Source of the DNA: a virus
Direction: 5' to 3' (one strand)
Length of the DNA: 64,000 nucleotides
IMG/VR virus record: IMGVR_UViG_3300032722_000004
Span: 1-64,000 of that record
Positions 778-14,664 of the stretch are shown here, one piece after another (the stretch's first letter is position 1; every line of letters begins with the position of its first letter). The notes under the pieces were generated by a model that was not told the origin of the DNA, ran no database searches, and worked only from the letters and a program-made list of their open reading frames with translations. A program made the position numbers and the translations under genes.

Positions 778-796
778 AAGAGTCTCCTTACGTGAC

Positions 797-804: not shown

Positions 805-828
805 TTTGTTTGGTGCCGGCACCAAGGA

Positions 829-1341
829 TTAGTAGCTTTTGCCTTCAGCATAACGTTGTCTTCTAGTGTGTCTACCGTTACCTTTATTTTTGGCCTTATA
901 AGTAGGTGTTTGGCTATGACAATTGGGACATAGCAAACAAAGATTTTCTAATGCATTGTTATCACTATTACCGTCTTTATGTTCTAGTTCTAATGTTATA
1001 GGTTTAGAATTGTAATCACTGATTCCGCATTCTGTGCATTTATAACCAAATGTTTCTTTTAAGTATCGACGGATAGCACCTAACCCGGGTGCTTGGTTTT
1101 CATCTAACCACTGTTTAATTTTTAAAGAAAAAATGTGATCATTTTGACATTTATTATTACAATATTTGCCCTTACTAGAAATACTATTATTACAGTAAAC
1201 ACATATATTTGTATAAATTATTTTTCTTTTAGCATTATTACAGGCAGCAGAACAAGACGAATTGCAAAACAATCTATGACGATGTTCATATTTTAAAATC
1301 TGACTACAATGTATACACCGTTTAGGATCGATTGTATACAA
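829..1341 (-). CDS. HNH homing endonuclease with zinc-binding N-terminus
   Basis: 170 residues. The C-terminal half has an HNH nuclease core with the run LELEHKDGN...LCLLCPNCHSQ, where the two CxxC pairs bind structural zinc. The N-terminal 75 residues contain several further Cys pairs resembling zinc ribbons. The protein would nick or cut DNA and spread its own gene. It sits alone between tRNA genes, a usual place for such elements. No in-frame ATG exists, so translation probably begins at the TTG at 1341. A close relative lies at 8990-9487. Confidence 0.85.
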   Translation of the reverse strand: MYTIDPKRCIHCSQILKYEHRHRLFCNSSCSAACNNAKRKIIYTNICVYCNNSISSKGKYCNNKCQNDHIFSLKIKQWLDENQAPGLGAIRRYLKETFGYKCTECGISDYNSKPITLELEHKDGNSDNNALENLCLLCPNCHSQTPTYKAKNKGNGRHTRRQRYAEGKSY

Positions 1342-1377
1342 GTTTATCCGATCTTGCTTTTTTGCAGTGTTATTGCA

Positions 1378-1393
1378 GCGGATTATAATCCGC
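1378..1393. repeat. 16-bp perfect palindrome
   Basis: GCGGATTATAATCCGC is a perfect inverted repeat just upstream of the TTG-start HNH gene. It could be an operator or a hairpin in the 5' leader. The sequence gives no further hint. Confidence 0.5.
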
Positions 1394-1477
1394 CTATTCT
1401 GCTTTACTCATACTCATTTTTGAAACTTTCTATTAATTAATAATTATTTATCTTTCAAATATGAAAACGAGCAAAAA

Positions 1478-1552
1478 TGGTGCCCCAAGAGGGAATTGAA
1501 CCCCCTGCCTTCGACTTACAAGGTCGCTGCTCTACCGATGAGCTATAAGGGC
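1478..1552 (-). tRNA. tRNA-Thr(UGU)
   Basis: Cloverleaf with anticodon stem GCGAC/GTCGA, loop CTTGTAA (anticodon TGT), T-loop TTCAATT and encoded CCA. The acceptor stem has one T-T mismatch at pair 6:67 but is otherwise normal. Confidence 0.85.
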
Positions 1553-1626
1553 GTATTTTACGTATTTTTCGAATGAGCTATACCGGCATTATCATGTATA
1601 TATGCATGGTTCCATGCATGAAAATT

Positions 1627-1634
1627 TATAAATA
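1627..1634 (+). promoter_or_regulatory. T4-type late promoter
   Basis: Exact TATAAATA octamer 16 nt before the ATG at 1651, with an AGGAAAG ribosome-binding site between. Confidence 0.6.
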
Positions 1635-1650
1635 CGTAAAAGGAAAGCTA

Positions 1651-1998
1651 ATGAATATAAAACCTATTGTTGACAAAATAAATGATATCAACAAGACAAT
1701 AGCCATACTCATTACAAATTCTGTAGCCACAATGTGGTGTGCTTACCTTTTTGCTATTATAGCGTTTATCAGTTTACCCGAAGCTATTAAGGGTGGGGTC
1801 GCTACTCTGATAAGTTGGATAGCACAGACTTTCTTGCAGTTAGTTTTACTTAGTATAATTATGGTAGGTCAAGCGGTCTTAAATGAAAAAACAGAAAAAA
1901 GAGCAGACGAAGATCACGAAACTTTATTAAAAGAGTTACAGGAAATCAAAGCTATTCATTCTGATATTCATGAACTACTTAAGAAACACGATGAGTAG
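1651..1998 (+). CDS. Small two-helix membrane protein (DUF1003-like)
   Basis: 115 residues from the ATG at 1651, chosen because AGGAAAG precedes it; an upstream in-frame start at 1573 has no ribosome-binding site. Two hydrophobic helices (about residues 25-48 and 58-80), including the run WIAQTFLQLVLL and IIMVGQ, are followed by a charged helical tail. The motif resembles the DUF1003-type membrane family. A holin-like role is possible but not shown. It is one of the few plus-strand genes here. Confidence 0.7.
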   Translation: MNIKPIVDKINDINKTIAILITNSVATMWCAYLFAIIAFISLPEAIKGGVATLISWIAQTFLQLVLLSIIMVGQAVLNEKTEKRADEDHETLLKELQEIKAIHSDIHELLKKHDE

Positions 1999-1999
1999 T

Positions 2000-2045
2000 T
2001 CGGGCGGGAGTGACGATTCTTCACCCGCTCTTGCCGTCTCTAGAG
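2000..2045 (+). terminator. Possible terminator hairpin
   Basis: GCGGGAGTGA pairs with TCACCCGC (one bulged A) just past the stop of the membrane-protein gene. There is no convincing T-run, so the call is weak. Confidence 0.3.
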
Positions 2046-2168
2046 TACACTAGTCAACGCTGACAGCCTTGCTATTTATTGATCGTTTAACTACACTACC
2101 GAACTTAAATAATATAGAGTTAACCATGACCCTATGCGGAGTTATTTACGGCTCTCACCCCGTTAGAA

Positions 2169-2245
2169 TGGCTCCCCAGGTTCGGCTCGAACGAACGACA
2201 TTCGGATTAACAGTCCGACGCAACTACCAACTGTGCTACTAGGGA
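2169..2245 (-). tRNA. tRNA-Asn(GUU)
   Basis: Cloverleaf with anticodon stem TCGGA/TCCGA and loop CTGTTAA (anticodon GTT). Acceptor TCCCTAG pairs with CTGGGGA, the discriminator is G and CCA is encoded. Confidence 0.85.
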
Positions 2246-2285
2246 ATGATATTAAACACCATAAATTAGATTCTCATATTGATTA

Positions 2286-2293
2286 GATAAATA
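2286..2293 (+). promoter_or_regulatory. T4-type late promoter (leaderless class)
   Basis: GATAAATA ends 4 nt before the ATG at 2298. With T4 late geometry, transcription would start at or next to the start codon. Confidence 0.5.
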
Positions 2294-2297
2294 AATC

Positions 2298-3017
2298 ATG
2301 TTTCACATTATATACAAAACTACTAACACTGTCAACAACAAAATCTACGTGGGTTATCATTTTCAAGAAAGTGACCCCTTCGCATTTGATGGATATTTAG
2401 GTAGCGGTAAAGGTATCTTAAAGGCTATAAAGAAATACGGGCGATACAAATTTATACGAGAAACGCTACATGTGTTTACTACGGAACATGATGCGTTGTC
2501 TAAGGAAACTGAAATAGTTAATGAATCATTTATAATGAGGTCCGATGTCTACAATTTAGTACCGGGAGGAGGCAAACCTCCGTCACATAAAGGAAAGAAA
2601 AAAACCGAAAACCACAAAAAGAAAATAGGATGTTCACAAAAAGGGAAAGTTATATCTATAGCGCAACGAGATAAAACTAGCACGACGCTAACAGGGAGAA
2701 AAGTAGGACCACACTCTGTTGAGCGTAAGAAAAACATTGCTAACGCATTACTTGGTGTAAAACACACCGAAGAACGTAAACAGAAGATGAGCGATAATCA
2801 CGCTGACATGTCTGGGGCTAAAAACCCTATGTTCGGTAAAATTGGACCTGCAAATCCAAACTTCGGTAGAAAAGATTCAAGTACAGCAAAACTTCGAAAG
2901 AAGCAAGCCGCACTTGAATCTCAGGTTATTGTCGAGTGCCCGCATTGCAAAAAGATCGGTAAAAGATCAGGAATGCAAGTTTGGCATTTCGACCGCTGTC
3001 GCAAATTAAAAATATAG
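2298..3017 (+). CDS. GIY-YIG homing endonuclease with NUMOD3 repeats
   Basis: 239 residues. The N-terminal GIY-YIG nuclease core reads IIYKTTN...KIYVGYH followed by GYLGSGKGI. Lys/Arg-rich NUMOD3-like DNA-binding repeats fill the middle (about residues 95-190; motifs such as ERKQKMS and NPMFGKIGPANPNFG). A C-terminal zinc motif CPHCKK...H...C is shared with other endonucleases of this window (39611 and 51355). It is free-standing next to tRNA-Asn and overlaps convergently the 3' end of the HNH gene at 3006 by 12 bp. Confidence 0.88.
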   Translation: MFHIIYKTTNTVNNKIYVGYHFQESDPFAFDGYLGSGKGILKAIKKYGRYKFIRETLHVFTTEHDALSKETEIVNESFIMRSDVYNLVPGGGKPPSHKGKKKTENHKKKIGCSQKGKVISIAQRDKTSTTLTGRKVGPHSVERKKNIANALLGVKHTEERKQKMSDNHADMSGAKNPMFGKIGPANPNFGRKDSSTAKLRKKQAALESQVIVECPHCKKIGKRSGMQVWHFDRCRKLKI

Positions 3018-3569
3018 TCTAATTCTACTGTGTTTTGGAATACCGGACATCAAGTAATCCATTTGGTCAGCAAGGATGCTGCGGTTTTGGAGAACCAAAT
3101 GTTCATAATGTGACGGTTCGTACGGTACGTACAGCAACTCCATACCAGCCTGCTTCAACGTCTTACAACCCTTCTTTTGGTTACAAGGCTTACAAGCAGT
3201 TACGACGTTCATCCATTCATCTTCGCCACCAAGAAACCGCGGCTTGATGTGATCACGACTCAAGAATTGATGACTCGTGTGATGATCACCGCAATAGGCG
3301 CAGACGCTACGGTCACGAGCGAACAAAGTCTTGTTCGTCAGAATAACATGCGTGTGCTTCTTGAAGTCGAAACCAGTGCCCTTAATGGCGATGATACTCG
3401 GAGTTTCAAGATAGCTTTGGGTACCGTCATTTCTCGTGCCACCACGATAACGAGCAACTACCGAACCTAGCGACCAGGCCACAAGACCCTTCGCGTGATA
3501 AGAAATTGCATCGTCGTTAGATACCCAAGTTCGGGGAATACCCGAAACGTCCAAGGCTAGAATCGCCAT
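3006..3569 (-). CDS. HNH endonuclease, bacterial type
   Basis: 187 residues. An HNH domain (about residues 90-135) has zinc ligands CAYC and CKPC and a catalytic RDHIKPRFLGG...N motif of the common bacterial or phage HNH class. The N-terminal 80 residues are of unknown fold. A late promoter (GATAAATA) and GGAG site precede the ATG. It could be a homing enzyme or a phage DNA-processing nuclease. Confidence 0.8.
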   Translation of the reverse strand: MAILALDVSGIPRTWVSNDDAISYHAKGLVAWSLGSVVARYRGGTRNDGTQSYLETPSIIAIKGTGFDFKKHTHVILTNKTLFARDRSVCAYCGDHHTSHQFLSRDHIKPRFLGGEDEWMNVVTACKPCNQKKGCKTLKQAGMELLYVPYEPSHYEHLVLQNRSILADQMDYLMSGIPKHSRIRLYF

Positions 3570-3588
3570 AACTGCTCCTATTTTTCTG

Positions 3589-3596
3589 TATTTATC
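3589..3596 (-). promoter_or_regulatory. T4-type late promoter (Shine-Dalgarno class)
   Basis: Minus strand GATAAATA about 19 nt before the ATG at 3569, with GGAG between. Confidence 0.6.
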
Positions 3597-3707
3597 CTAT
3601 ATGTTCATTCTCTCTATTGAACCCTATGTTCAATCCTTGAAATTTCTTCAATTCATCTTATGAGTTAATATAACAAAATGGGCGAACGGCGTCAACCATT
3701 TTATAGA

Positions 3708-3881
3708 CTATTCGTTGAGAATACCTGATTCCCAATTTTCGGCGGCGGACTCTGCATAGTAGATTGACTTGTCCTTAAGATCGATTGTACGCTTAAGAAT
3801 TTCGTTTTCGTAGCAAAGCACTACATATCCATCTATGTCAGTGATGACCGCTCTGCGATTAGGTTTAGTATTAGTGTTCAT
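3708..3881 (-). CDS. Small hypothetical protein, 57 residues
   Basis: The reading frame runs from an ATG with AGGAG eight bases upstream to a TAG stop. The product begins MNTNTKPNRRAVITDIDGY and is acidic towards its end (ESAAENWESG). No family is recognised. Codon use is like that of neighbouring phage genes, and the clean ribosome-binding site makes a real gene likely. Confidence 0.65.
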   Translation of the reverse strand: MNTNTKPNRRAVITDIDGYVVLCYENEILKRTIDLKDKSIYYAESAAENWESGILNE

Positions 3882-3948
3882 GAGTTTCTCCTATATACTA
3901 TTTAAGTACCTAATTTAGGTAATTATTTTTCTATAGGTAAATCGTATT

Positions 3949-4023
3949 TGGTGCCTAGAACAGGATTGAACTGCCGGCCTTCGCTTTACGAAAGCGCTGC
4001 TATACCAATTCCGCCACCTAGGC
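3949..4023 (-). tRNA. tRNA-Thr(CGU), first copy
   Basis: Acceptor GCCTAGG/TCTAGGC, anticodon loop TTCGTAA (anticodon CGT), T-loop TTCAATC, encoded CCA. The anticodon arm is identical to that of the tRNA at 5778-5852, but the D-arm (GGTGGCGGAATTGGTA) resembles leucine tRNAs. The gene may be a recombinant. Confidence 0.75.
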
Positions 4024-4032
4024 ATATTTTAT

Positions 4033-4257
4033 TTAGGATTTAGGTCCGTATTTTTCCATAAGGGCCAGATAGTCGTCAAGAATAACTTGTGCCTTTTGGC
4101 AGGCACTAAAACTTTGTTCACATGCCGGAAGCTTTCCGCCAGCAGCAGAAAAACCGGCAAACCAATGCCTCAATCGCTTCATTTCTTCGACTGTATGCGA
4201 CACGTACAGCTTTGTATGCTTGTCCAAATCCTTTTCAAGCGCGGTCTTCTTAGTCAT
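4033..4257 (-). CDS. Small hypothetical protein, 74 residues
   Basis: Lys-rich, predicted helical, with two cysteines (CEQ...CQK). No recognised family. It lies between tRNA-Thr and the TilS-like gene on the same strand and is separated from the latter by 13 nt, so it is likely co-transcribed with it. Confidence 0.6.
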   Translation of the reverse strand: MTKKTALEKDLDKHTKLYVSHTVEEMKRLRHWFAGFSAAGGKLPACEQSFSACQKAQVILDDYLALMEKYGPKS

Positions 4258-4270
4258 TGTATTTTATCTT

Positions 4271-4948
4271 TCAATAGTTGTGAATTAACGCATTGAGCAT
4301 AGATTTCTCTAGATTTCTACGACTCATCAGTTGTGGAATGATTTCATTTCTCAACCAATTTCTTTCATGGTGATTGTCTTGATTAGTGATATCATCAATG
4401 AAGGGGATACCGCGCCGATTGCACTGTTCTAAAATAACAGACTTCGGAACCGTAAGAAATGGTTTGCATTTAAAAAATTCTAGGCTTTCGTCAAATCTAA
4501 ACTTAGCAAGTCCAAGATTCGAATGAGCGGCGCCCCGCATCAGGTCCAAAAACACTTGTTCGATATTGTCATTGAGGTGGTGTGCAGTTACCGCTACAAC
4601 CTCTTTACCAAGAGTTTTTCTGTAGTTACGCACAAACTCCCAACGCTGACTGCGGGCCTCTGCTTCAAGGTTGGAAGAATCTTTGAGATCCTTTCCGTAA
4701 CCAACGACAAAGTTACATTGAATCTGTTTATCCTGAATAAACTGCTGAATGAGTTCCTTGTCGAGATAATCGTTGTCTCGAATACCGTGCTGAAAATGAC
4801 AGACAGTAAAACCGATGCCTGCATTATTGCAGAAATCTAGCATGAACATACTGTCGGGTCCTCCTGATACCATCAGCAGGATTTCTCTACGATCTTGCGA
4901 ATACAGATTCACTAATTCTTGTTGAATCTTTTTCCATGCAACTGACAT
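4271..4948 (-). CDS. tilS: TilS-like tRNA(Ile)-lysidine synthetase (PP-loop ATPase domain)
   Basis: 225 residues, equal to the N-terminal catalytic domain of bacterial TilS; the usual C-terminal tRNA-binding domains are absent. The PP-loop SGGPDS is at residues 28-33, and the second family motif HHLNDNIEQVFLDLMRG follows near residue 125. TilS converts the wobble C of the CAU anticodon of tRNA-Ile2 to lysidine so that it reads AUA. AGAGG precedes the ATG. The next gene on the same strand, only 19 nt upstream, is a CAU tRNA, its likely substrate. Another PP-loop enzyme such as TtcA is less likely given the HHxND motif. Confidence 0.8.
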   Translation of the reverse strand: MSVAWKKIQQELVNLYSQDRREILLMVSGGPDSMFMLDFCNNAGIGFTVCHFQHGIRDNDYLDKELIQQFIQDKQIQCNFVVGYGKDLKDSSNLEAEARSQRWEFVRNYRKTLGKEVVAVTAHHLNDNIEQVFLDLMRGAAHSNLGLAKFRFDESLEFFKCKPFLTVPKSVILEQCNRRGIPFIDDITNQDNHHERNWLRNEIIPQLMSRRNLEKSMLNALIHNY

Positions 4949-4967
4949 TTGAGTACCTCTTAGATGA

Positions 4968-5044
4968 TGGTGCCCGCACTAGGATTTGAACCTAGGACCC
5001 CAGGTTTATGAGACCTGCGCTACTGACCACTGAGCTATACGGGC
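4968..5044 (-). tRNA. tRNA with CAU anticodon, probably tRNA-Ile2
   Basis: Full cloverleaf, acceptor GCCCGTA/TGCGGGC, anticodon stem CAGGT/ACCTG, loop CTCATAA, encoded CCA. A CAU anticodon can be Met or lysidine-modified Ile2. The adjacent tilS-like gene and the C4:G69 pair (a positive TilS determinant in E. coli) favour Ile2. Confidence 0.8.
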
Positions 5045-5084
5045 ATATTTCTTTAATTTTATCATAACAGATATAAAAAAATTG

Positions 5085-5722
5085 TCAACCGGGTTTTTTA
5101 TTTTCTTTATGGTTGCGACGAGTTAGACCTTTTCTATATCCTATAGGAATTTCGTCCAATGGCGAAATTGATTTGTTAATCACTCCGTTAGTTATTCTGA
5201 CTTTGTTTTTAGAGGCTAATGATCTTTTTCTGTTGGCTTCTTGGTGTTCAACTGAATCCGTATTTTTTGGTTTACCTTTATTCGCTAACCCGCCTTTTTA
5301 GCTCTTTCTCGCATGGCGTTCGTATAGGAACTATATTCTTCCTCCGTCATTCTGCTGACGTACTCTAAATAAGCTTTTTTGGCCAGAAGACTGCGTTCTT
5401 CTACTGTTGTTTTTTCTATCCTTGCCAGAGCGCCCTTAAGGGCGCTCTCTTTGGTAAACCCTCCCACTCCGCCCAATCTCATATTATAATTTGAATGTTC
5501 GTTAAAGTTTTCGGTTAGCTTTCGTTCTAAATCATATGCTTCCGTTCGGGTTTCGGATATTAAAAGAATTTCCTTTCGAAAATTTTCTTTTCCATATTTT
5601 GAAATTGCGTTTTTTATTGCAGTTCCGCTCCCGTAATACGAATCCATTGGCTTGTTGGTCTTATGAACTCCTATATAGGTTTTGCTGTTAACCAAATTAG
5701 TAATTCTATAAACAGTATACAT
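5085..5722 (-). pseudogene. GIY-YIG homing endonuclease with a -1 frameshift
   Basis: From the ATG at 5722 (preceded by GGAGAAA) a GIY-YIG core reads VYRITNLVNSKTYIGVH and SYYGSGTAI. The frame stops at 5285 after RAKKAG. One base shifted, the frame continues for about 65 codons to 5085 with KVRITNG and IPIGYRKGLTRR, the typical C-terminal DNA-binding tail of such enzymes. Adding one A to the A5 run at 5295-5299 restores a single frame. This may be a real mutation, slippage or a homopolymer sequencing error. Confidence 0.75.
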
Positions 5723-5777
5723 GCGAAATTTTCTCCGAATGTATTTAACATGTCGCAACCTAAACACTTAGATTTTT

Positions 5778-5852
5778 TGGTGCCCCATGACAGAATCGAA
5801 CTGCCGACCTTCGCTTTACGAAAGCGCTGCTATACCTCTTAGCTAATAGGGC
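5778..5852 (-). tRNA. tRNA-Thr(CGU), second copy
   Basis: Acceptor GCCCTAT/ATGGGGC, anticodon loop TTCGTAA (CGT), T-loop TTCGATT, encoded CCA. It shares the anticodon arm with the tRNA at 3949-4023 but has a different acceptor and D-arm. It ends two bases from the stop of the next gene. Confidence 0.8.
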
Positions 5853-5853
5853 G

Positions 5854-6237
5854 TTAGTTATTTACTGTGTTGTCGCCGTGAAACTGTCCGTATATACAAT
5901 GGATAAATTCGTGACCAACAAACTCTGGTTGGTAAGTCACGCTAGGATCCATCATGTGAATTGTGCATGTATCATAACTAGGAGGTTGCAGCAGGCTAAA
6001 TGCTACTACGTTAGTAGAATTTACTTTATGATCTGATGCCGTAGTACTCTTATTGAGATACCCTGCTACTACTCGGTTTAATTCCGAAGGTGATTTATAT
6101 GTAACTATCTTAATCGTAACTTCGTGCTTCTCGTACTGCTTTTGTTTAAAAGTATAACCATCAGCGCCAACTTGTGAACTTGAATTTGGCGTACATGCTG
6201 CTAACGCAAGCACAGCGATGCATAGTAATTTTTTCAT
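5854..6237 (-). CDS. Lipoprotein with HEXXH zinc-peptidase motif
   Basis: 127 residues. A signal peptide with lipobox LAAC (Cys at about residue 15) implies export and lipid anchoring. Near the C-terminus the run GHEFIHCIYGQFH contains HEFIH, the HEXXH signature of zinc metallopeptidases, plus a third nearby His. The protein is short for a peptidase, so activity is uncertain. GGAGG precedes the ATG, and a GATAAATA octamer sits 18 nt upstream. A role in envelope modification or lysis is possible but inferred. Confidence 0.75.
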   Translation of the reverse strand: MKKLLCIAVLALAACTPNSSSQVGADGYTFKQKQYEKHEVTIKIVTYKSPSELNRVVAGYLNKSTTASDHKVNSTNVVAFSLLQPPSYDTCTIHMMDPSVTYQPEFVGHEFIHCIYGQFHGDNTVNN

Positions 6238-6255
6238 AAGAGTATCCTCCCATAT

Positions 6256-6263
6256 TATTTATC
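6256..6263 (-). promoter_or_regulatory. T4-type late promoter (Shine-Dalgarno class)
   Basis: Minus strand GATAAATA, 18 nt before the ATG at 6237, with GGAGG between. Confidence 0.6.
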
Positions 6264-6265
6264 TA

Positions 6266-6301
6266 ATGATAAATATGAATATAATGATAAATATGAATAT
6301 G
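6266..6301 (+). repeat. 18-bp tandem duplication containing late promoter
   Basis: AATGATAAATATGAATAT occurs twice in tandem. Each copy holds GATAAATA followed by TGAAT, and the second copy runs into the ATG at 6299. In the first copy the equivalent triplet is ATA. The duplication places two promoter octamers in a row. Confidence 0.7.
6286..6293 (+). promoter_or_regulatory. T4-type late promoter (leaderless class)
   Basis: GATAAATA, spacer TGAAT (5 nt), ATG at 6299. No Shine-Dalgarno sequence lies before this ATG. Confidence 0.55.
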
Positions 6302-6862
6302 GACACTACAGATTTTCGTAAACTACTTAACCTATTTGAAGCACGTAATCCTAATTTGGAGTACGAGGACGAACCTAACGGTAAAAAGGTCATTGCTAGA
6401 CTTAAGAGCTATAATAGCCAAATATATACAAAGCTTGCACAAAAACTTGCAAGAATTGATGAATTGGAATCAGAAGTCAAATATCTTAAAGCTGCCGTAA
6501 AGGATGAAGCTAAAGAAAATGTGAGTGATTTGTTTGACGCAGAAGATGCCGTTCGCACTAGAGTTGTTGAGACTCTTAGCTTTATCTTTACGTTGACTAA
6601 GGATCCGGAAGAAACTAGAACTCCAAAGTACAAAGATATTTTAACTGAATTAGAGAAGCATCTAACACCTGAATTGATCGTAGTGTTAGAGGGGCTTAAA
6701 AAGCAAATGGTTACAGTGACTCAAAAAAGTCCTGCAATGTCAGTAAAGCCAATCAAAGAAGCTGTAGGAGATGTGTTCTCTCGACTAAAACAGACTATTT
6801 TGGGTTGGGCTAAAGATTACGATAGACAGCTTGATGCACTTAAAGCAGAAGCCGGTATGTAA
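6299..6862 (+). CDS. Hypothetical helical protein, 187 residues
   Basis: Start set at the ATG following the promoter octamer and 5-nt spacer (product begins MDTTDFRKLLNLFEARN). Residues 25-90 form a Lys/Glu-rich coiled coil, and the rest is also helical. A start such as RKLLNLFEA is common in T4-like phage structural or core proteins, but no family can be named. Confidence 0.7.
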   Translation: MDTTDFRKLLNLFEARNPNLEYEDEPNGKKVIARLKSYNSQIYTKLAQKLARIDELESEVKYLKAAVKDEAKENVSDLFDAEDAVRTRVVETLSFIFTLTKDPEETRTPKYKDILTELEKHLTPELIVVLEGLKKQMVTVTQKSPAMSVKPIKEAVGDVFSRLKQTILGWAKDYDRQLDALKAEAGM

Positions 6863-6868
6863 CTAATT

Positions 6869-6952
6869 TGGTAGGGGCGGAGGGAGTCGAACCCCCAATC
6901 CTTTCGGAAGCTGCTTTTGAGACAGCCGCGTAGACCATTCCGCCACGCCCCC
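6869..6952 (-). tRNA. tRNA-Leu(CAA)
   Basis: Class II tRNA with anticodon loop CTCAAAA (CAA), a long variable arm (CTTCCGAAAGG), T-loop TTCGACT and encoded CCA. Confidence 0.88.
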
Positions 6953-6998
6953 ACATCATTTATACCCTGGACAATTCCACCATCGGGGCATTATATAT

Positions 6999-7083
6999 TG
7001 GTGCGAGTAGAGGGAGTCGAACCCCCACGCCTTTCGGCGCTGGTACCTAAAACCAGTGCGTCTACCAATTCCGCCATACTCGC
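6999..7083 (-). tRNA. tRNA-Leu(UAG)
   Basis: Class II tRNA, acceptor GCGAGTA/TACTCGC, anticodon stem CTGGT/ACCAG, loop TTTAGGT (TAG), variable arm GCGCCGAAAGGCG, encoded CCA. The 46 nt between this and the previous tRNA (6953-6998) contain a fragment like a tRNA 5' half. Confidence 0.88.
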
Positions 7084-7222
7084 ATAAAACTTACTGGGGT
7101 TCCTCATTTTTAGAGACCGTCACCCCCTTAAAAGCTTACTAATAGCAGTATTGTGCTGCCTAGTTTCTCCTCAACCGTATATCTCATTCTGCAGGGCTTG
7201 CAATAATCACCTACAGTAAAAA

Positions 7223-7275
7223 TGGTGTCTCCCGGCGACTTGACGCCTTTAGCACGCTATGAACCTGAGGAGACA
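7223..7275 (-). tRNA. Mini tRNA-like element, 53 nt
   Basis: A perfect 7-bp acceptor TGTCTCC/GGAGACA, followed by CCA, encloses only about 36 nt. GGCG/CGCC with loop TCAAGT resembles a shortened T-arm, and GTGCTAA resembles an anticodon loop, but no full D-arm fits. It is either a deletion derivative or a reduced tRNA-like RNA. Confidence 0.45.
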
Positions 7276-7279
7276 TAAA

Positions 7280-7355
7280 TGGTGTTGCCCTTCGGTAATG
7301 ATCCGAAACCTCGAGATTTTCGGTCTCGCGTGCAGACCATCTACACTAGAGCAAC
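7280..7355 (-). tRNA. tRNA-Phe(GAA), divergent
   Basis: Acceptor GTTGCTC/GGGCAAC, anticodon stem CGAGA/TCTCG, loop CCGAAAA (anticodon GAA), encoded CCA. Two near-universal positions deviate: base 33 is C instead of U, and the T-loop is ATCATTA instead of TTCRANN. It may be decaying or non-functional. Confidence 0.6.
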
Positions 7356-7400
7356 ATGAATTCTGCGGACTTACGGTGTTCTTCACCCGCCGAGTTATTT

Positions 7401-7471
7401 TGGTGGAGACGGAGGGAATCGAACCCTCCCTGCTGAACTGCCAGCCCGGCGTTAAGCCCACTTACGTCCCC
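7401..7471 (-). tRNA. tRNA of uncertain type, short
   Basis: Acceptor GGGGACG/CGTCTCC, normal T-arm GAGGG/CCCTC with loop TTCGATT, encoded CCA. The central part is too short for standard D and anticodon arms. One reading is a class II tRNA lacking its D-arm, with loop CTTAACG (TAA, Leu) and variable stem GCTG/CAGC. Another is a degenerate alanine-like tRNA (G3:U70 is present). Confidence 0.5.
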
Positions 7472-7546
7472 ATAATCTCTCGGGTAGCTGCACACTACCC
7501 TTCCTCGTCAGAACCATTGTGCAGGGTACCAACGAGAGTATCCTCT
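7472..7546 (-). other. Spacer with hairpins
   Basis: This spacer lies past the Pth2 gene on the minus strand. It contains GAGAGGATACTCTC and GGGTAG/CTACCC hairpins, the latter with a 7-nt loop like a T-arm. Probably the remains of another tRNA or a processing signal. Confidence 0.3.
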
Positions 7547-7930
7547 CTACATGAATAGCTTCAAGGCTTTCAAATCTTCACCGATCAAGTCTTCTCGAAT
7601 AGGACCGAGTCCTAAACAAGTAACAGTCGGTTCGTTGAATACCGTGAACCCAGCGTCTTTAACTAACGAGACACCGCATACATTCTTGTATGCCTCTTGA
7701 ATCACTTCTAGTTCGGCTACCGTGTCAACAATAAGAGTGATCTTATACGCATGATCACTGTTCTTGTACTGGATTGCTTGAAGATTGCAGTCCGAAGAAA
7801 CCTCAAGACTAACTGCATTCCAATAAGCATGAAGGTATGCGTGACCTGCCATAGAAGCAAGCTTTCCGCGATTACCTTTCATCTTGTCTACGCTTTCTTT
7901 AGCGAAGATGCAGTACATTTTCAGTTTCAT
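7547..7930 (-). CDS. pth2: Pth2-type peptidyl-tRNA hydrolase
   Basis: 127 residues from the ATG at 7930, chosen because GAGGAAAT precedes it; a longer reading would run into the neighbouring tRNA. The family pattern is seen in order: MYCIFAKESVDKMKGNRGKL, then AGHAYLHAYWNA, then a lone beta-alpha region ending VKDAGFTVF and LGLGPIREDLIG. Pth2 releases tRNA from peptidyl-tRNA that drops off ribosomes. The family is typical of archaea and eukaryotes and is found in some bacteria and phages. Its place within the tRNA array suggests it keeps phage tRNAs in circulation. Confidence 0.8.
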   Translation of the reverse strand: MKLKMYCIFAKESVDKMKGNRGKLASMAGHAYLHAYWNAVSLEVSSDCNLQAIQYKNSDHAYKITLIVDTVAELEVIQEAYKNVCGVSLVKDAGFTVFNEPTVTCLGLGPIREDLIGEDLKALKLFM

Positions 7931-7948
7931 ATTTCCTCGCTGGTATGT

Positions 7949-8022
7949 TGGATGAGGGGCCAGGACTCGCACCTGGATCTTCTGATTCAGAGTCAAATAT
8001 CCTACTATTAGACGAACCCTCA
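7949..8022 (-). tRNA. tRNA-Gln(CUG)
   Basis: Starts TGAGGGT like other Gln tRNAs. Anticodon stem TTTGA/TCAGA, loop CTCTGAA (CTG), D-arm GTCTAATAGTAGGAT, CCA encoded. Acceptor pair 7:66 is a mismatch. Confidence 0.75.
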
Positions 8023-8030
8023 ATTAAATT

Positions 8031-8122
8031 TGGCGGAGAGTGAGGGATTTGAACCCCCGGTACTTATTTCTAAGTACGTCGGTTTTCGAGACCGCCACCT
8101 TCGGCCGCTCGGTCAACTCTCC
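8031..8122 (-). tRNA. tRNA-Ser(CGA)
   Basis: Class II tRNA, acceptor GGAGAGT/ACTCTCC, anticodon loop CTCGAAA (CGA), long variable arm GTACTTAGAAATAAGTAC, discriminator G, encoded CCA. Confidence 0.9.
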
Positions 8123-8131
8123 GTAGTTAAA

Positions 8132-8220
8132 TGGTCAGGGTAGCAGGATTCGAACCTGCGTGAACGATTCCGCCTCTCGTTTCCAAAACGAGCGCTCCGA
8201 CCTGGCTGAGCTATACCCTG
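8132..8220 (-). tRNA. tRNA-Pro(UGG) with enlarged variable region
   Basis: The C1:G72 pair typical of bacterial proline tRNAs, anticodon stem CTCGT/ACGAG, loop TTTGGAA (TGG), normal T-arm GCAGG/CCTGC, encoded CCA. Between the anticodon and T stems are about 16 nt instead of the usual 5, giving 89 nt in total, which is abnormal for Pro. Confidence 0.7.
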
Positions 8221-8226
8221 ATAATT

Positions 8227-8290
8227 TGGCCGTCAGGAAATTTTCTCTCCGGCAGTCACTAGTAAACTGCTACCGCTGCGGGACCTGACG
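8227..8290 (-). tRNA. tRNA-like element with CTA in the anticodon position
   Basis: Perfect 7-bp acceptor CGTCAGG/CCTGACG, then GCCA. A D-arm-like CCGCAGCGGTAGC and a stem GCAGT/ACTGC with loop TTACTAGTG are present. The T-arm position holds GGAGAGAAAATTTCC, without a TTC loop. At 64 nt it is too short for a normal tRNA. It could be decayed or a structured RNA. Confidence 0.4.
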
Positions 8291-8300
8291 ATAAACTGTC

Positions 8301-8364
8301 GCCCCTACTCTATCTTTCTCTCGATTACTTTCGGTGTTGGATACCAAACATACGTGATAGGGGC
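8301..8364 (-). tRNA. tRNA-like element without CCA
   Basis: Perfect acceptor-like helix GCCCCTA/TAGGGGC enclosing about 50 nt that include TTGG-TAT-CCAA, followed by GACA rather than CCA. No recognisable T-arm or anticodon arm. Function unknown. Confidence 0.35.
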
Positions 8365-8373
8365 ATAAACTTA

Positions 8374-8461
8374 TGGCGGAGCGTTAGAGATTCGAACTCT
8401 ATACCCGTAAGGTACCTTTCGCTTTCCAAGCGAAGACAGATCCTATCTGCTTACCCACTCC
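8374..8461 (-). tRNA. tRNA-Ser(GGA)
   Basis: Class II tRNA, acceptor GGAGTGG/ACGCTCC (pair 7:66 mismatched), anticodon stem TTCGC/GCGAA, loop TTGGAAA (GGA), variable arm with GGTACC/GGGTAT, T-loop TTCGAAT, discriminator G, encoded CCA. Confidence 0.82.
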
Positions 8462-8467
8462 GTATTA

Positions 8468-8521
8468 TGGTGGCCCTCAATCCTAATTATATAATCACCT
8501 AAGTGAGTTGATAGTCGGGGC
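8468..8521 (-). pseudogene. tRNA remnant, 54 nt
   Basis: Starts GCCCC and ends GGGC-CA-CCA, so four acceptor-like pairs and a CCA remain. The AT-rich interior (CTTAGGTGATTATATAATTAGG) does not fold as a cloverleaf. Probably a deleted tRNA. Confidence 0.4.
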
Positions 8522-8529
8522 ATAAACTT

Positions 8530-8622
8530 TGGTGTGCAATGCGCAATTTGGTGGGTCTAATTGGAATCGAACCCACGTCTGCTGCTTTGGAGACAGCGGT
8601 ACTACTATTGTACGAAGTGCGC
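8530..8622 (-). tRNA. tRNA-Trp(CCA) with expanded T-arm
   Basis: D-arm GTAC/GTAC, anticodon stem GCTGT/GCAGC, loop CTCCAAA (CCA). Acceptor GCGCACT pairs with ATTGCGC (one mismatch). The T stem GTGGG/CCCAC encloses about 16 nt instead of 7, beginning TTCGATT. CCA occurs both after CCCA at 8549 and at the 3' end at 8530, so the exact end is uncertain. Confidence 0.55.
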
Positions 8623-8633
8623 ATGATAAAGTC

Positions 8634-8738
8634 GTATTGGCTAGCGGAATCAAACCGCTTTTGGGGCACCCAAGTCCTATAGAGACGATTCGAACGTCAC
8701 ACCCTTTCCCACCAAGGAAAACCACCTAGGACCAATAC
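8634..8738 (-). tRNA. Composite tRNA-like element, 105 nt
   Basis: An outer perfect 7-bp helix GTATTGG/CCAATAC encloses an outer T-arm AGCGG/CCGCT (loop TTTGATT), a hairpin TTGGG-TGC-CCCAA, and an inner tRNA-like unit with helix GTCCTA/TAGGAC and its own T-arm GACG/CGTC (loop TTCGAAT). The inner unit lacks a D-arm. No CCA follows. It looks like one tRNA inserted into another. Confidence 0.45.
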
Positions 8739-8744
8739 TATAAA

Positions 8745-8821
8745 TGGCGCAATCAGAGGGATTCGAACCCCCAACCCTCAGATTCGTAGTCTGATGCTCT
8801 CATCCGTTGAGCTATGACTGC
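8745..8821 (-). tRNA. tRNA-Arg(ACG)
   Basis: Acceptor GCAGTCA/TGATTGC, anticodon stem TCAGA/TCTGA, loop CTACGAA (ACG, wobble A presumably deaminated to inosine by the host), T-loop TTCGAAT, encoded CCA. Confidence 0.9.
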
Positions 8822-8841
8822 ATACTTTAATATGCTATATT

Positions 8842-8918
8842 TGGCGAATCCTGACAGATTTGAACTGCCGACCCTCGCGTCCGAAGCGCGATGCTCTAGT
8901 CCGCTGAGCTAAGGATCC
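8842..8918 (-). tRNA. tRNA-Arg(UCG)
   Basis: Acceptor GGATCCT/AGGATTC, anticodon stem TCGCG/CGCGA, loop CTTCGGA (TCG), T-loop TTCAAAT, encoded CCA. Confidence 0.88.
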
Positions 8919-8924
8919 GTAATA

Positions 8925-8999
8925 TGGTGCCGACGAAGGGGATTGAACCCTTGACCTCAGTCTTACCAAGACTGCGCACTACCACTGTGCTACGTCGGC
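8925..8999 (-). tRNA. tRNA-Thr(GGU)
   Basis: Acceptor GCCGACG/CGTCGGC, anticodon stem CAGTC/GACTG, loop TTGGTAA (GGT), encoded CCA. Its first ten bases overlap the 3' end of the HNH gene upstream. Confidence 0.88.
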
Positions 9000-9487
9000 T
9001 TATTTTTGTACCGGTGCGTTCGACCATTTCCCCTGTTTTTTCCTTTAAAGGAATCAGTTTGACTATGACAGTTTGGACAAAGCAACCTTAAATTATCTAT
9101 ATGATTGTTATTAGGATTACCATCTGAATGATCACATTCTAGTGTGATTGGGAGATCGTTCCATTGCTCTAATTTACACCACTGACATTTGGCTCCATGC
9201 AACGCTATTAAAGTTCGGCGCGCCCATGCCGGAAAACCCATGCTATCAAATGCACCGGTTATCAACCAATTTTTAATTTTTTCAGCAGACTGGTATTCTG
9301 CTTGACATTTATTAGAACAAAACTTTTGCTTGACGCCACATTGTTTCTCGCATTTCAAACACGAAGGTATATTTGTTCGGGCTCTACCTCTACTAATAGA
9401 GTATCTTCCGCCTTCCCGATGAACACTTTTATGTCCATTCAATTGACGGAACGTTTCAAACTCTTTACCGCAGTGACATACGTGCAT
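8990..9487 (-). CDS. HNH homing endonuclease with zinc-binding N-terminus
   Basis: 165 residues, a paralogue of the protein at 829-1341. The N-terminus begins MHVCHCGKEFETFRQLNGH, a C2H2-like zinc finger, then further CxxC pairs. The C-terminal HNH core is LECDHSDGN...LRLLCPNCHSQ. AGGACA precedes the ATG, and a late promoter lies about 20 nt upstream. The coding region ends inside tRNA-Thr(GGU), so the element inserted tightly against a tRNA. Confidence 0.88.
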   Translation of the reverse strand: MHVCHCGKEFETFRQLNGHKSVHREGGRYSISRGRARTNIPSCLKCEKQCGVKQKFCSNKCQAEYQSAEKIKNWLITGAFDSMGFPAWARRTLIALHGAKCQWCKLEQWNDLPITLECDHSDGNPNNNHIDNLRLLCPNCHSQTDSFKGKNRGNGRTHRYKNKPT

Positions 9488-9507
9488 AAGCTTTGTCCTA
9501 GCTCAGT

Positions 9508-9515
9508 TATTTATG
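9508..9515 (-). promoter_or_regulatory. T4-type late promoter (Shine-Dalgarno class)
   Basis: Minus strand CATAAATA about 20 nt before the ATG at 9487. Confidence 0.55.
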
Positions 9516-9558
9516 CCTATTAATAGGTATGTTGTATGAGCTAACACGGCATATAATT

Positions 9559-9632
9559 TGGCTGTCCCCCAAGGACTCGAACCTCGATAATCCGCACCAA
9601 AAACGGATGTCTTACCATTAGACGAAGGGACA
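9559..9632 (-). tRNA. tRNA-Gln(UUG)
   Basis: Starts TGTCCCT like Gln tRNAs. Anticodon stem TCCGT/GCGGA, loop TTTTGGT (TTG), T-loop TTCGAGT, encoded CCA. Confidence 0.85.
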
Positions 9633-10880: not shown

Positions 10881-11349
10881 TCTTACCAATAGCGGCTATC
10901 GCAGCAGCAATTTTCACAATTGCTGATTTTGCCTTAACATTTATGCCGCCGTTTGTTAGCAGACTCGAATAATAATTGATTAATTTTTCGTGCTGCATAG
11001 CGATGGCTGCTGCAAAAGCATATGCGTTGTGATTTGGTTGATTCCAATCATTGGTCAATCCACCAGTATATTGAGGATATGACATGCATGTCGCTTCCAT
11101 AACTAGAAGCACTGCTACTTTCTTTGCTATTTCTCTTTCGTCGGATCCGAAAAGTGGACCATTCATAGAAATTTCAAATGCCAAACCACCATTAGCAGTT
11201 GCGGTAGCAGCAGCAAGAGCACAACCGTGAACAGTTATTTCATCTAACTGTGCTACCGCATCATCTATGGAGTATTGTAGCGTTTCAGCCACAGATTCCG
11301 CATATTCCGGAATAGTACCCTTTACGTCATCAATCCAATTTCGAGTCAT
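10873..11349 (-). CDS. Hypothetical helical Ala-rich protein, 158 residues
   Basis: Mostly alpha-helical, with Ala-rich segments in the middle and at the C-terminus. No family recognised and no signal peptide. Its ATG overlaps the TAA of the zinc-finger/XRE gene by one base, so the two are translationally coupled even though their base composition differs. Confidence 0.6.
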   Translation of the reverse strand: MTRNWIDDVKGTIPEYAESVAETLQYSIDDAVAQLDEITVHGCALAAATATANGGLAFEISMNGPLFGSDEREIAKKVAVLLVMEATCMSYPQYTGGLTNDWNQPNHNAYAFAAAIAMQHEKLINYYSSLLTNGGINVKAKSAIVKIAAAIAAIGKIT

Positions 11350-11807
11350 TATTTTCCTAAAGCAGGGCAGTATAGTCGTAGTTGATCTTTTCCTTCACCC
11401 GGGGCATCGGCAGCCAGCAGGGCGCAGGCGTTGTGGCGGACAAGATGATCCGAATAGTCACCCACACCCTTTCCCCCATCCTTCTCCCAACGAGAGGCTG
11501 TCTCAGCCGTGATACCCATCGTCTCGGCAAATTCCTTTTGCGTCATGTCCAAAGCACGGCGCAGCAGACGCATATCACCCGCGTTCAGTTTGATCGGCAG
11601 CAGGCAACGAGCCACAGCCACCGTCCGCACTAGACCCCGCATGTCCGGGATCATGGTCATCTCGTCCGCACATCCAGCGCAGCGACGCACGTGGACGGTG
11701 TTTTTCAGGCACACCTCAATTCCGCCGACATCCTCCAGGTGCTCCGGGAGGATGTACTCCTCATAGTGGCCATTGCCACATTCCGTGCATGTCGTCGTAG
11801 TGTTCAT
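11349..11807 (-). CDS. Zinc-finger/XRE transcriptional regulator (MqsA/YgiT-like)
   Basis: 152 residues. The N-terminus has zinc-ligand pairs CTEC and CAGC (about residues 8-50) as in YgiT-type fingers. An XRE helix-turn-helix follows (about residues 78-115; RRALDMTQKEFAETMGITAE, then TASRWE). This is the layout of MqsA-type antitoxins and related repressors. No mRNA-interferase toxin gene is adjacent, so a regulator role is more likely than a toxin-antitoxin pair. The gene is about 63-65% G+C in sampled 60-base lines, against 37% just next to it, indicating recent transfer from a GC-rich bacterium. Confidence 0.75.
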   Translation of the reverse strand: MNTTTTCTECGNGHYEEYILPEHLEDVGGIEVCLKNTVHVRRCAGCADEMTMIPDMRGLVRTVAVARCLLPIKLNAGDMRLLRRALDMTQKEFAETMGITAETASRWEKDGGKGVGDYSDHLVRHNACALLAADAPGEGKDQLRLYCPALGK

Positions 11808-12021: not shown

Positions 12022-12095
12022 GATAAATAAAAATGTAGTTCACGGATGTCTCGACAATATCCCAACTACTCTAACGCTATCAAGGAGCAAGCACC
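12022..12095 (+). ncRNA. Structured late leader, copy A
   Basis: GATAAATA is followed by ATGTAGTTC, an outer stem GTAGTT/AACTAC (12035-12040 with 12064-12069), an inner stem GGAT/ATCC, then CTCTAA and an AAGGAG site before ATG at 12096. It matches the leader at 51286-51354 in order and in key sequences, with changes that keep the inner stem paired. Downstream there is only a 13-codon frame, so the original gene seems to have been lost. Confidence 0.6.
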
Positions 12096-12110
12096 ATGCT
12101 ACAAATTTAT

Positions 12111-12326
12111 TTATCTATTGCGAACAGCAGTATTTAAATTAGATATGTCAGTTTTTTGGCGGCGATAATGCCTCTGCATTAGGCCCAACTCAGACTGAAC
12201 ATTAGCTACTGTCTCTGCTAGTCTACGAATCTTTGATTCAAGTAGCTCGATTTGTTTTTCAACCGTAATGGGTTGAATGTGATCTACCTTCGTAGAAGAA
12301 GCCTCACTCTTATACATCTTTGACAT
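12111..12326 (-). CDS. Small coiled-coil protein, 71 residues
   Basis: Begins MSKMYKSEASSTKVDHIQ. Residues 20-65 are a heptad-patterned Leu/Ile coiled coil (KQIELLESKIRRLAETVANV). AGGAAC precedes the ATG. No family recognised. Confidence 0.65.
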   Translation of the reverse strand: MSKMYKSEASSTKVDHIQPITVEKQIELLESKIRRLAETVANVQSELGLMQRHYRRQKTDISNLNTAVRNR

Positions 12327-12349: not shown

Positions 12350-13246
12350 TCAATTGCGGGTTAACCCGTTTAACTTGAAGTTAACAAATCCTACGATGTG
12401 GTCTGCTACATTTATATTGCAATATCGTTCGAAGCCCTCAAAGCCTGGAGCTGAGTTTGCTTCACAAACTTTAAATCCGTTTTCATCAAACAAGAGGTCT
12501 ATCCCTGCAATTTGCAATCCGCAAACTCTAGCAGTCTCTCTCGCAATGTATTCAATTTCGTCGGTGACCTCAAATGTTTCACCGTGACCACCATTTGAAA
12601 TATTAGCACGGAAGTCACCGACTGGAGCAATACGTTTCATTGCCCCAATCACCTTGCCGCCCACAACAAACACTCTGAGGTCTTCACCTGGGCGGTGTCC
12701 TACGTATTCTTGTACTATTAAGGTTTTTGCACTTTTTAGACTATCAGTGAAGTCCATAAGCTTTTTGAAATCTTTTTTTCTTTCACATAGATATACACCT
12801 TCACCATAGCTTCCACTAATCACTTTTACTATGCAAGGCCAACCAATATTTCTATCTACAATATCAACTTCAACTGGAAACCTAACTAGCATCGTATTTG
12901 GAATTGGAATTCCATTGCTCACTAGTAATTGTGATGTTCTAAGTTTATCTTTAGCAATCTCAATTCCCTCAGAGGAATTTACACAAGGTGTTCCTTCTTC
13001 TTCAAACTGTCTGATCAAAGCCCTTGCAAACTCATTTGTACCTGATCCAGTTCTAGTCAACAAAAGTTTGGGTTTCTCAAGGGTCAATCCATTGTAATTT
13101 ATACCAGTTTCTATACCTTGCCTAACAACTAAATCAAAGTTTTCTGGATTGGCAAACTGTACGTTTATACCTTGGTTGGCAAAACTTTCTAGGAGACGAG
13201 CATTCTCATAATCCTTTTCTCTTTTGGTCAAAATTACTACAGACAT
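12350..13246 (-). CDS. rimK: RimK-family ATP-grasp ligase
   Basis: 298 residues from the ATG at 13246 (MSVVILTKREKDY), preferred over one 13 codons upstream because it fits the family start. ATP-grasp features are seen in order: PCIVKVISGSYGEGVYL (nucleotide-binding loop), QEYV...GEDLRVFVVGGKVIGAMKR, and the metal-binding end GIDLLFDENGFKVCEANSAPGF. RimK adds glutamates to the C-terminus of ribosomal protein S6. Relatives make other amide bonds, such as in tetrahydrosarcinapterin synthesis or Lys biosynthesis. A phage copy might modify host ribosomes or a phage protein, but the substrate is not evident. Confidence 0.8.
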   Translation of the reverse strand: MSVVILTKREKDYENARLLESFANQGINVQFANPENFDLVVRQGIETGINYNGLTLEKPKLLLTRTGSGTNEFARALIRQFEEEGTPCVNSSEGIEIAKDKLRTSQLLVSNGIPIPNTMLVRFPVEVDIVDRNIGWPCIVKVISGSYGEGVYLCERKKDFKKLMDFTDSLKSAKTLIVQEYVGHRPGEDLRVFVVGGKVIGAMKRIAPVGDFRANISNGGHGETFEVTDEIEYIARETARVCGLQIAGIDLLFDENGFKVCEANSAPGFEGFERYCNINVADHIVGFVNFKLNGLTRN

Positions 13247-13273
13247 ACTGAATCTTTCATACTGTGTATATTT

Positions 13274-13306
13274 ATGACATTTCATATTTCATATTTCATA
13301 TTTCAC
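13274..13306. repeat. Short tandem repeat CATATTT
   Basis: TTCATATTTCATATTTCATATTTCA, about three and a half units, upstream of the RimK-like gene. Possibly a slippage-prone microsatellite. Confidence 0.5.
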
Positions 13307-13463: not shown

Positions 13464-13790
13464 TTACAGGTCTTCATCTTCATCAATCCAATCTGCTTCA
13501 TCGTAATCTAGTGTTTTGGCTCGTTTATCGTATTCTTTGTAGAGAGGTTCGTTGGGCGTCATGATTCGAAAATCGTATTTCAATAGGGCAAATACAACTT
13601 CCTGCTTATCGAGCATATCACACACTACCCATGGATTACCGCATCCTCCTGTCGTAGTTTTAAAAGGAGTATGTTGGAATTCATTGCGCTCTAGTGCCTT
13701 ATGTATTGCACTACCGTAGAGAAAGATGATGCGGGTTTCCTCTTCTTTTTTTATGCGAAGCTTGTCCGCGGTTGTTAGTTTTTCAGATAT
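13464..13790 (-). CDS. Hypothetical protein with no canonical start codon
   Basis: About 108 codons, clearly coding-like (KLRIKKEEETRIIFLYGSAI, then GNPWVVCDMLDKQEVVF, acidic end DYDEADWIDEDEDL). The frame opens after a TGA inside the peroxiredoxin gene and holds no ATG, GTG or TTG until residue 60. The natural-looking start SEKLTTADKLR is preceded by ATA. Either AUA is used, the start mutated from ATG, or translation is coupled to the overlapping upstream gene. Function unknown. Confidence 0.5.
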   Translation of the reverse strand: MSEKLTTADKLRIKKEEETRIIFLYGSAIHKALERNEFQHTPFKTTTGGCGNPWVVCDMLDKQEVVFALLKYDFRIMTPNEPLYKEYDKRAKTLDYDEADWIDEDEDL

Positions 13791-14308
13791 ACGAGGATGT
13801 TTTCAGGTGAAGATTCACCGTAGGGATCCGTATCGCAATTGTGTTCGATGCCAGGTTCAATAAACCACTTTTCAATGCGTCCATTGTCAACGATTACCGC
13901 ATATCGCCAAGAACGAACACCGAAACCCAAATTATCCTTAGCAACAAGCATGTTCATCTTGCTAGTGAATTCACCAGAACCATCCGGAATAACCTTAACG
14001 TTCTTTAGATTTTGGTCTTGAGCCCACTTGTTCATGACGAACGAATCGTTCACTGACAAGCAGTAGATTTCGTCAATACCCAAATCCTTAAATTGTTGAT
14101 AGTTATTTTCAAAACCCGGAAGTTGGTAAGTAGAGCAAGTAGGGGTAAATGCTCCAGGCAGCGCAAATAGCACAACTCGCTTTCCTGCGAAATAGTCAAA
14201 TGAAGTTACTTCTTGCCAGCGATATGGATTGGGTCCTTCGATACTATCGTCACGAACCCGAGTCTTAAAGACTACGCTAGGGACTAGCGTAGGAAGGTCA
14301 GCACTCAT
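13775..14308 (-). CDS. Peroxiredoxin (Prx5/AhpE-like, thioredoxin fold)
   Basis: 177 residues from the ATG at 14308, set by AAAGGAGA. The peroxidatic cysteine lies in PGAFTPTCSTYQLPG (Cys58) with the conserved TxxC context of Prx5. The family reduces hydroperoxides using glutaredoxin or glutathione, or thioredoxin. A later Cys (EHNCDTDPYG) may be the resolving one. A phage glutaredoxin is encoded at 27700 and could be its partner. It probably protects the infected cell or phage enzymes such as RNR from oxidation. Confidence 0.88.
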   Translation of the reverse strand: MSADLPTLVPSVVFKTRVRDDSIEGPNPYRWQEVTSFDYFAGKRVVLFALPGAFTPTCSTYQLPGFENNYQQFKDLGIDEIYCLSVNDSFVMNKWAQDQNLKNVKVIPDGSGEFTSKMNMLVAKDNLGFGVRSWRYAVIVDNGRIEKWFIEPGIEHNCDTDPYGESSPENILVYLKN

Positions 14309-14358
14309 AATGTCTCCTTTATAATAATGACATATACTACAACTTAATGCAGTATATG

Positions 14359-14664
14359 TCAATTATTATGGGACAGCAGGTCTTCCTTAGTCATAGTAAA
14401 ACGAGATTTAACCCAAGCATCACGCATGACTTGCAGCCGTTGACCAACTTCCTTGCCAGGCTTCATACCAGTTTCCAGCAGGTCTTGTCCTTTAATCGGA
14501 AAGATCGGAGGAACATAGCATTCGGCATAGTCGGGACTTTGATCTTGCAGCAGAGCCCAAGAAACTGCCCAATCACGTCGAACACCGTCAACCAGACGCA
14601 GTTGAAAAACACGGGAAGTGAATTCCTCGTGCAGCGATTTCAGTTCTTGTGTGATCATGTCCAT
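14359..14664 (-). CDS. Small protein resembling C-terminal end of CCA-adding enzyme
   Basis: 101 residues. The segment PPIFPIKGQDLLETGMKPGK and VGQRLQVMRDAWVKSRF follows the pattern of the tail domain of bacterial tRNA nucleotidyltransferases (typically PxFPLxGxDLLxLGxxPGPxxGxxL). The catalytic polymerase head is absent. It may be a stand-alone tRNA-binding domain kept by the phage, or a gene remnant. Most phage tRNAs here already encode CCA. The match is by pattern only. Confidence 0.45.
   Translation of the reverse strand: MDMITQELKSLHEEFTSRVFQLRLVDGVRRDWAVSWALLQDQSPDYAECYVPPIFPIKGQDLLETGMKPGKEVGQRLQVMRDAWVKSRFTMTKEDLLSHNN

Follow-up and report, generated by a model that had tools for sequence, protein, structure and literature searches.

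Two stretches of a 64,000-nt viral sequence (the window, positions 1 to 64,000 of IMG/VR record IMGVR_UViG_3300032722_000004) resemble one another closely, raising the questions of what this repeat is, which of its strands folds as RNA and what role it could play ahead of a nuclease gene. The initial annotation described the repeats as structured leaders of late mRNAs that share several sequence blocks and differ in their inner stems. Both were present, with the inner stems changed as described: the pattern ATGTAGTTC-N-AACTACTCTAA was matched exactly at 12033-12074 and 51297-51333, no third site was found in the window, and 0 of 100 dinucleotide shuffles contained a match. The parts of the two copies, as interpreted below, are:

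12022-12029, plus strand: sense late octamer GATAAATA of copy 1, from the sequence
12035-12095, minus strand: predicted antisense structured RNA of copy 1 (59 bits, covariance model R1)
12096-12137, plus strand: remnant of 13 codons where the copy 1 nuclease gene is expected, from the sequence
12108-12115, minus strand: mirrored late octamer GATAAATA of copy 1, proposed antisense promoter, from the sequence
51286-51293, plus strand: sense late-promoter octamer TATAAATA of copy 2, from sequence, spacing and comparison with the empty site
51299-51353, minus strand: core of the predicted antisense structured RNA of copy 2, 5′ end near 51353 (89.6 bits, model R1)
51341-51346, plus strand: Shine-Dalgarno sequence AAGGAG of the copy 2 nuclease gene, from sequence and alignment
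51355-51931, plus strand: HNH homing endonuclease gene of copy 2, frameshifted, from the sequence and an intact allele in contig L365
51360-51367, minus strand: mirrored late octamer TATAAATA in the first codons of the copy 2 nuclease gene, proposed antisense late promoter, from the sequence

In copy 2 the sense octamer lies 5 nt ahead of the structured element and forms the left boundary of an inserted cassette. Hairpin 1 (51330-51352) consists of the stems CUGA/UUAG and UACU/AGUA, hairpin 2 (51299-51328) of the outer stem GUAGUU/AACUAC and an inner stem, and the complement of the Shine-Dalgarno sequence falls within hairpin 1. The predicted fold energy is -18.1 kcal/mol for the antisense strand and -14.3 kcal/mol for the sense strand. 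An HNH gene does follow this copy, as initially proposed, but it is frameshifted (its first 37 amino acids are read from 51355 and those that follow in the frame of 51422-51931); an intact version of 189 amino acids is found on the allelic contig L365. The frameshifted sequence recurs at 100% identity in contigs L362 and L364, which makes a simple assembly error unlikely. Copy 1, which had been called orphaned, is followed by the 13-codon remnant alone; its hairpin 1 is degenerate (GUGC in place of CUGA), hairpin 2 is intact (12035-12069), and its mirrored octamer has departed from the canonical spacing. Copy 1 is neighboured by minus-strand ORFs for a RimK-like ATP-grasp ligase (12350-13285), a redoxin/AhpC-TSA protein (13775-14362) and an HTH protein (11349-11807).

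The repeats proved to be members of a larger family. While the two copies reported initially are the only ones in the window, the complete 175,742-base viral record holds five matches to covariance model R1 (12022-12111, 51286-51367, 104690-104771, 115505-115583 and 172135-172215), and 12 other viral records hold between 1 and 13 copies each. At least ~206 distinct copies were collected, with up to 13 per genome, and the stems were conserved among them. Pattern searches of IMG/VR matched at least 120 contigs using the outer stem, CTCTAA and AAGGAG, and again at least 120 when the outer stem was ignored; the pattern with all three blocks had no match among 84,980 GTDB genomes. A broader pattern, TGTAGTTC-N-AACTAC, was too noisy in viral contigs and was dropped. 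The AUG-UAG start-stop element that had been noted in both window copies occurs in 39 of the 206 collected copies, where the position is mostly GTG, and was set aside as incidental.

Among cultured phages, a single copy was found in each of two. That of Pseudoalteromonas phage vB_Psh_XG4 scores 41.5 bits with R1, a model built without it, and 49 bits with R2, of which it is part; that of Variovorax phage V45v66 is absent from R2 and scores 58 bits with it. No copy was detected by model searches of T4, Aeh1, RaK2, S-PM2 and several cyanophages, and blastn of the leader and consensus against cultured phages returned nothing useful. No close cultured relative of the source phage was found; its tail sheath is most similar, at 31-34% identity, to those of Agrobacterium phage Atu_ph07, Sinorhizobium phage Phosso and the PA5oct group. 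The same window contains a cluster of 20 tRNA genes (52-9632, minus strand). None of the 4227 Rfam models matched the repeat and its stems show strong compensatory change, bearing out the suggestion of a previously unnamed RNA element; as judged by these searches and alignments, the repeats represent a structured RNA family that is widespread and had not been catalogued before.

To establish which strand is folded, pairing was examined in 127 model-aligned matches (96 distinct). Read as antisense, 98.9% of cells pair over 19 pairs, with double (compensatory) changes at 15 of the 19, in an alignment that was itself fitted to the antisense structure and with which separate MAFFT alignments and a neutral test agree. 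Not one of 500 shuffles matched the observed pairing, nor did slides of the alignment approach it. The cells that are not Watson-Crick were strongly asymmetric, with 186 G.U against 1 A.C across 18 pairs read antisense, and 91 against 1 after removal of a single near-invariant G.U pair. The same asymmetry holds for the outer stem in copies selected without an outer-stem condition, where compensated forms include GTGAGT/ACTCAC, GTAGGT/ACCTAC, GTGTAT/ATACAC, GTCCCT/AGGGAC and others: each non-Watson-Crick cell is A.C on the sense strand, equivalent to U.G antisense, and the reverse was never seen. In a neutral test allowing either strand, the outer stem paired on the antisense strand only in 21 copies and on the sense strand only in 0.

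For a set of 61 copies, aligned with MAFFT independently in each orientation, RNAalifold gave a consistent picture and predicted 10 pairs at -11.8 kcal/mol for the sense strand and 19 pairs at -19.5 kcal/mol for the antisense strand. The additional pairs include a CUGA/UUAG stem, formed with the near-invariant G.U pair from the CTAA and TCAG blocks that are unpaired in the sense fold; this stem pairs fully on the antisense strand only. In the vB_Psh_XG4 copy most pairs have changed, with the structure and the near-invariant G.U pair retained. Because G.U greatly exceeds A.C on the antisense strand, because 98.9% of cells pair there and because the changes are compensatory, the sequences show the folded strand to be the one antisense to the downstream nuclease gene, with two tandem hairpins of ~55 nt. 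The pairing that had been reported as kept despite sequence change is indeed conserved, but the conserved pairs belong to the opposite strand.

The elements flanking the structure were then considered. Within the window, 9 of the 14 minus-strand sites of the octamer [GT]ATAAATA have a gene start no more than 80 nt further on, where 0.9 would be expected, mostly at 6-27 nt, and we therefore read the octamer, by analogy with T4, as the probable late promoter of the source phage. Cassettes follow the order sense late promoter, RNA, nuclease gene. Among 122 copies chosen regardless of the hexamer, TAAATA was found in all 122 and was separated from the element by 5 nt in 108, while the mirrored hexamer TATTTA, which sits within codons 2-5 of the nuclease gene, was found in 118 against an expectation of ~3%. 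The spacing AGC-N5-TATTTA was kept in 101 of 120 copies, with the position of the ATG floating within N5. As the distance to CAGC is constant for TATTTA and variable for the start codon, the hexamer is spread over all three reading frames (138/15/14), and the nuclease proteins start with MxIY, MIF or MYL following its frame. This distribution at a set distance from CAGC argues that the constraint acts on nucleic acid and not on protein. At the sequence level, then, an opposed late hexamer lies at a fixed distance within the 5′ end of the nuclease gene. In T4, the late-promoter octamer ends at position -6; applied to the N5 spacing, this rule makes +1 coincide with the G that opens the antisense structure. 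The mismatch pattern, the CUGA/UUAG stem and the fixed-distance mirrored hexamer all point to an antisense transcript, and the original description of a folded 5′ leader of a late mRNA is not supported.

The ORFs downstream of the RNA encode homing nucleases by Pfam and PHROG comparison, and an ORF of at least 120 amino acids follows 141 of 155 complete copies. Their N-terminal regions fall into three groups without mutual matches: 63 SegE-like GLKYLGKT proteins, 37 HNH proteins and 36 YVYAYLRxDGTPYYIGKG GIY-YIG proteins. By this comparison, the same RNA precedes nucleases of no fewer than three unrelated families, two of them GIY-YIG-like and one HNH. Around 60 relatives contain the neighbour genes of copy 2 and lack the cassette, and comparison with these empty sites places the junctions of the insertion cleanly at the sense octamer and the nuclease stop codon; the gene is thus present in some alleles and missing from close relatives. 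At this one site the window and L365 carry the HNH gene while L417 and L429 carry a SegE-like gene, with the same RNA ahead, an exchange of nucleases at a single position. Copies within one genome are nearly all distinct from one another. The downstream nuclease genes and empty alleles bear out the earlier view that the element travels with homing genes.

Further arrangements were seen around such genes. In L352 (~1514-1590) a weak copy of the RNA precedes a nuclease-like gene of another, diverged family that contains repeats; its start codon seems to have shifted upstream of CAGC. In L397 a minus-strand nuclease gene (from ~7270 downwards) has a GIY-YIG domain after the same RNA element, fused in frame to a 132-aa ORF corresponding to window 50896-51294. 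Strong outward-facing sigma-70-like promoters are enriched just beyond the left boundary of many cassettes, as if these inserted just upstream of early promoters; the one flanking copy 1 (12014-11986, minus strand) scores 11 of 12. Elsewhere in the window (30608-34317, minus strand) the NrdA large subunit is split over two ORFs, each with half of an intein splicing domain, on either side of an unrelated 311-aa ORF (31693-32628) with no Pfam match, corresponding to the 'fractured gene' split-intein arrangement.

The reading that we favour, with moderate confidence, is that the element serves as regulatory head to a mobile homing-endonuclease cassette, in which an antisense RNA lies over the nuclease ribosome binding site in the manner of IS10 RNA-OUT. 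In large phages with the T4-type late promoter TATAAATA, the sense late promoter would drive the nuclease gene, and an opposed late promoter in codons 2-5 would fire to produce a short RNA from the conserved G of GCUGA. This RNA would fold as two tandem hairpins and probably end in the U-rich stretch past hairpin 2; a scan called no intrinsic terminator there, the U-rich tail being weak as a terminator. By position it would be the complement of the nuclease leader, taking in the Shine-Dalgarno sequence and what follows as far as the start codon, and the covarying antisense-strand structure does span the Shine-Dalgarno sequence. Pairing with the mRNA would most likely reduce translation of the nuclease late in infection. 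Some observations count against this reading: the distant copies in vB_Psh_XG4 and V45v66 retain the RNA and lack the N5 antisense hexamer; copies within one genome differ no more than copies across genomes and thus gave no sign of selection for copy-specific pairing or loops; and TATTTA may instead pair with TAAATA of the sense promoter.

IS10 RNA-OUT lowers translation of the transposase. The resemblance to IS10/Tn10 lies in an inward promoter for a nuclease-type gene (pIN), an outward promoter near the 5′ end of that gene (pOUT) and a short structured antisense RNA across the ribosome binding site, the transcript in the present case being predicted from sequence. Unlike IS10, the cassettes described here are those of phage homing endonucleases, with late phage promoters, two hairpins, unrelated nuclease families and a repression that we infer; since the downstream genes encode homing endonucleases and not a transposase, the system would be IS10-like in its working and not a member of the IS10 family. 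Free-standing T4-type Seg and Mob genes likewise encode GIY-YIG and HNH nucleases between phage genes, with empty alleles in relatives. Seven such T4 genes are promoter-less cassettes and others have ordinary middle or late promoters (PMC2988022), whereas here several nuclease families share one conserved RNA cassette. In HEARO and omega RNA (IscB-type), too, a structured RNA and an HNH nuclease gene are linked within mobile DNA; the present RNA differs in having no Rfam match, an antisense orientation and small GIY-YIG or HNH homing nucleases. No description of such a combination of antisense RNA and nuclease was found in the open-access literature. The sequences are those of a new RNA family that, on this analysis, appears to work like a known kind.

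A possible, if unlikely, variant is that this portable antisense RNA cassette, swapped among unrelated GIY-YIG and HNH nucleases, is a new class of phage small RNA, which acts in trans among the many copies of one genome or between coinfecting phages as a copy-number or superinfection control of selfish nucleases.

We consider it improbable that the antisense late promoter and structured leader instead serve to restore late transcription of a left-hand gene cut from its own promoter, thereby protecting the cassette from deletion. In 106 of 151 cases the gene on the left is oriented leftward and starts at a median distance of 45 nt, and in T4 neighbour-gene promoters are embedded in free-standing endonuclease genes, where they are thought to favour retention (PMC2988022). 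However, the mirrored hexamer and the hairpin are retained to the same degree where the left gene points right (hexamer kept in 68 of 72 leftward and 32 of 35 rightward cases), arguing against a role solely for neighbours. Moreover, 36 of the 106 leftward neighbours have a late hexamer of their own no more than 70 nt from the boundary, where sigma-70-like promoters are also enriched, and copy 2 was inserted between convergent 3′ ends with no neighbour in need, the 3′ end of its HNH gene overlapping that of a convergent kinase gene (51921-52556, minus strand).

Sequestration of the ribosome binding site within the sense mRNA likewise appears improbable. Here UAAAUA-UAUUUA pairing in read-through early or middle transcripts would close a three-way junction over the ribosome binding site, while late transcripts, starting within the junction, would escape. 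TAAATA and TATTTA are perfectly complementary in 195 of 206 copies, a promoter was found directly upstream of the structure, and T4 gene e, I-TevI and Aeh1 mobE are known to be controlled in this way (PMC3014915, PMC2988022). The leaders of these genes and of segB likewise combine a late promoter, an RNA structure and an endonuclease ribosome binding site, but their structure is in the sense mRNA; model R2 matched neither T4 nor Aeh1. In the present family the covarying stems follow antisense pairing rules, no conserved sense structure pairing the Shine-Dalgarno sequence or AUG was found, and covariation was absent from the bases beside the hexamers and beyond the core. Deviations in the ORF hexamer were without compensation in the promoter, the predicted closing stem had a mean probability of only ~0.5, and exposure of the Shine-Dalgarno sequence and AUG differed by only ~0.04 between read-through and late transcripts.

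Least probable is a trans-acting small RNA that has a phage or host function of its own, such as letting coinfecting cassettes interfere with one another, and that the nuclease merely accompanies as a hitchhiker: the conserved bulged Gs and near-invariant G.U pair suggest recognition by something, and vB_Psh_XG4 and V45v66, though distant, keep the structure despite loss of the N5 antisense hexamer, but the 141 of 155 complete copies that precede a long ORF and the lack of an abundant nuclease-free class among the collected copies speak against it.

Phages carry many selfish endonucleases that need to be expressed harmlessly, for which work on T4 invokes sense-strand RNA structures and autorepression. 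The antisense RNA favoured here, over the ribosome binding sites of unrelated nucleases, suggests a shared brake carried by the mobile cassette itself. The strand assignment also illustrates that G.U bookkeeping across covarying stems can tell the transcribed strand from sequence alone. If confirmed, the cassette would be a regulatory part of general use that phage mobile genes can exchange, the RNA would serve as a marker for nuclease cassettes, and its presence would explain why unrelated nucleases start with M-x-I-Y, M-Y-L or M-I-F.
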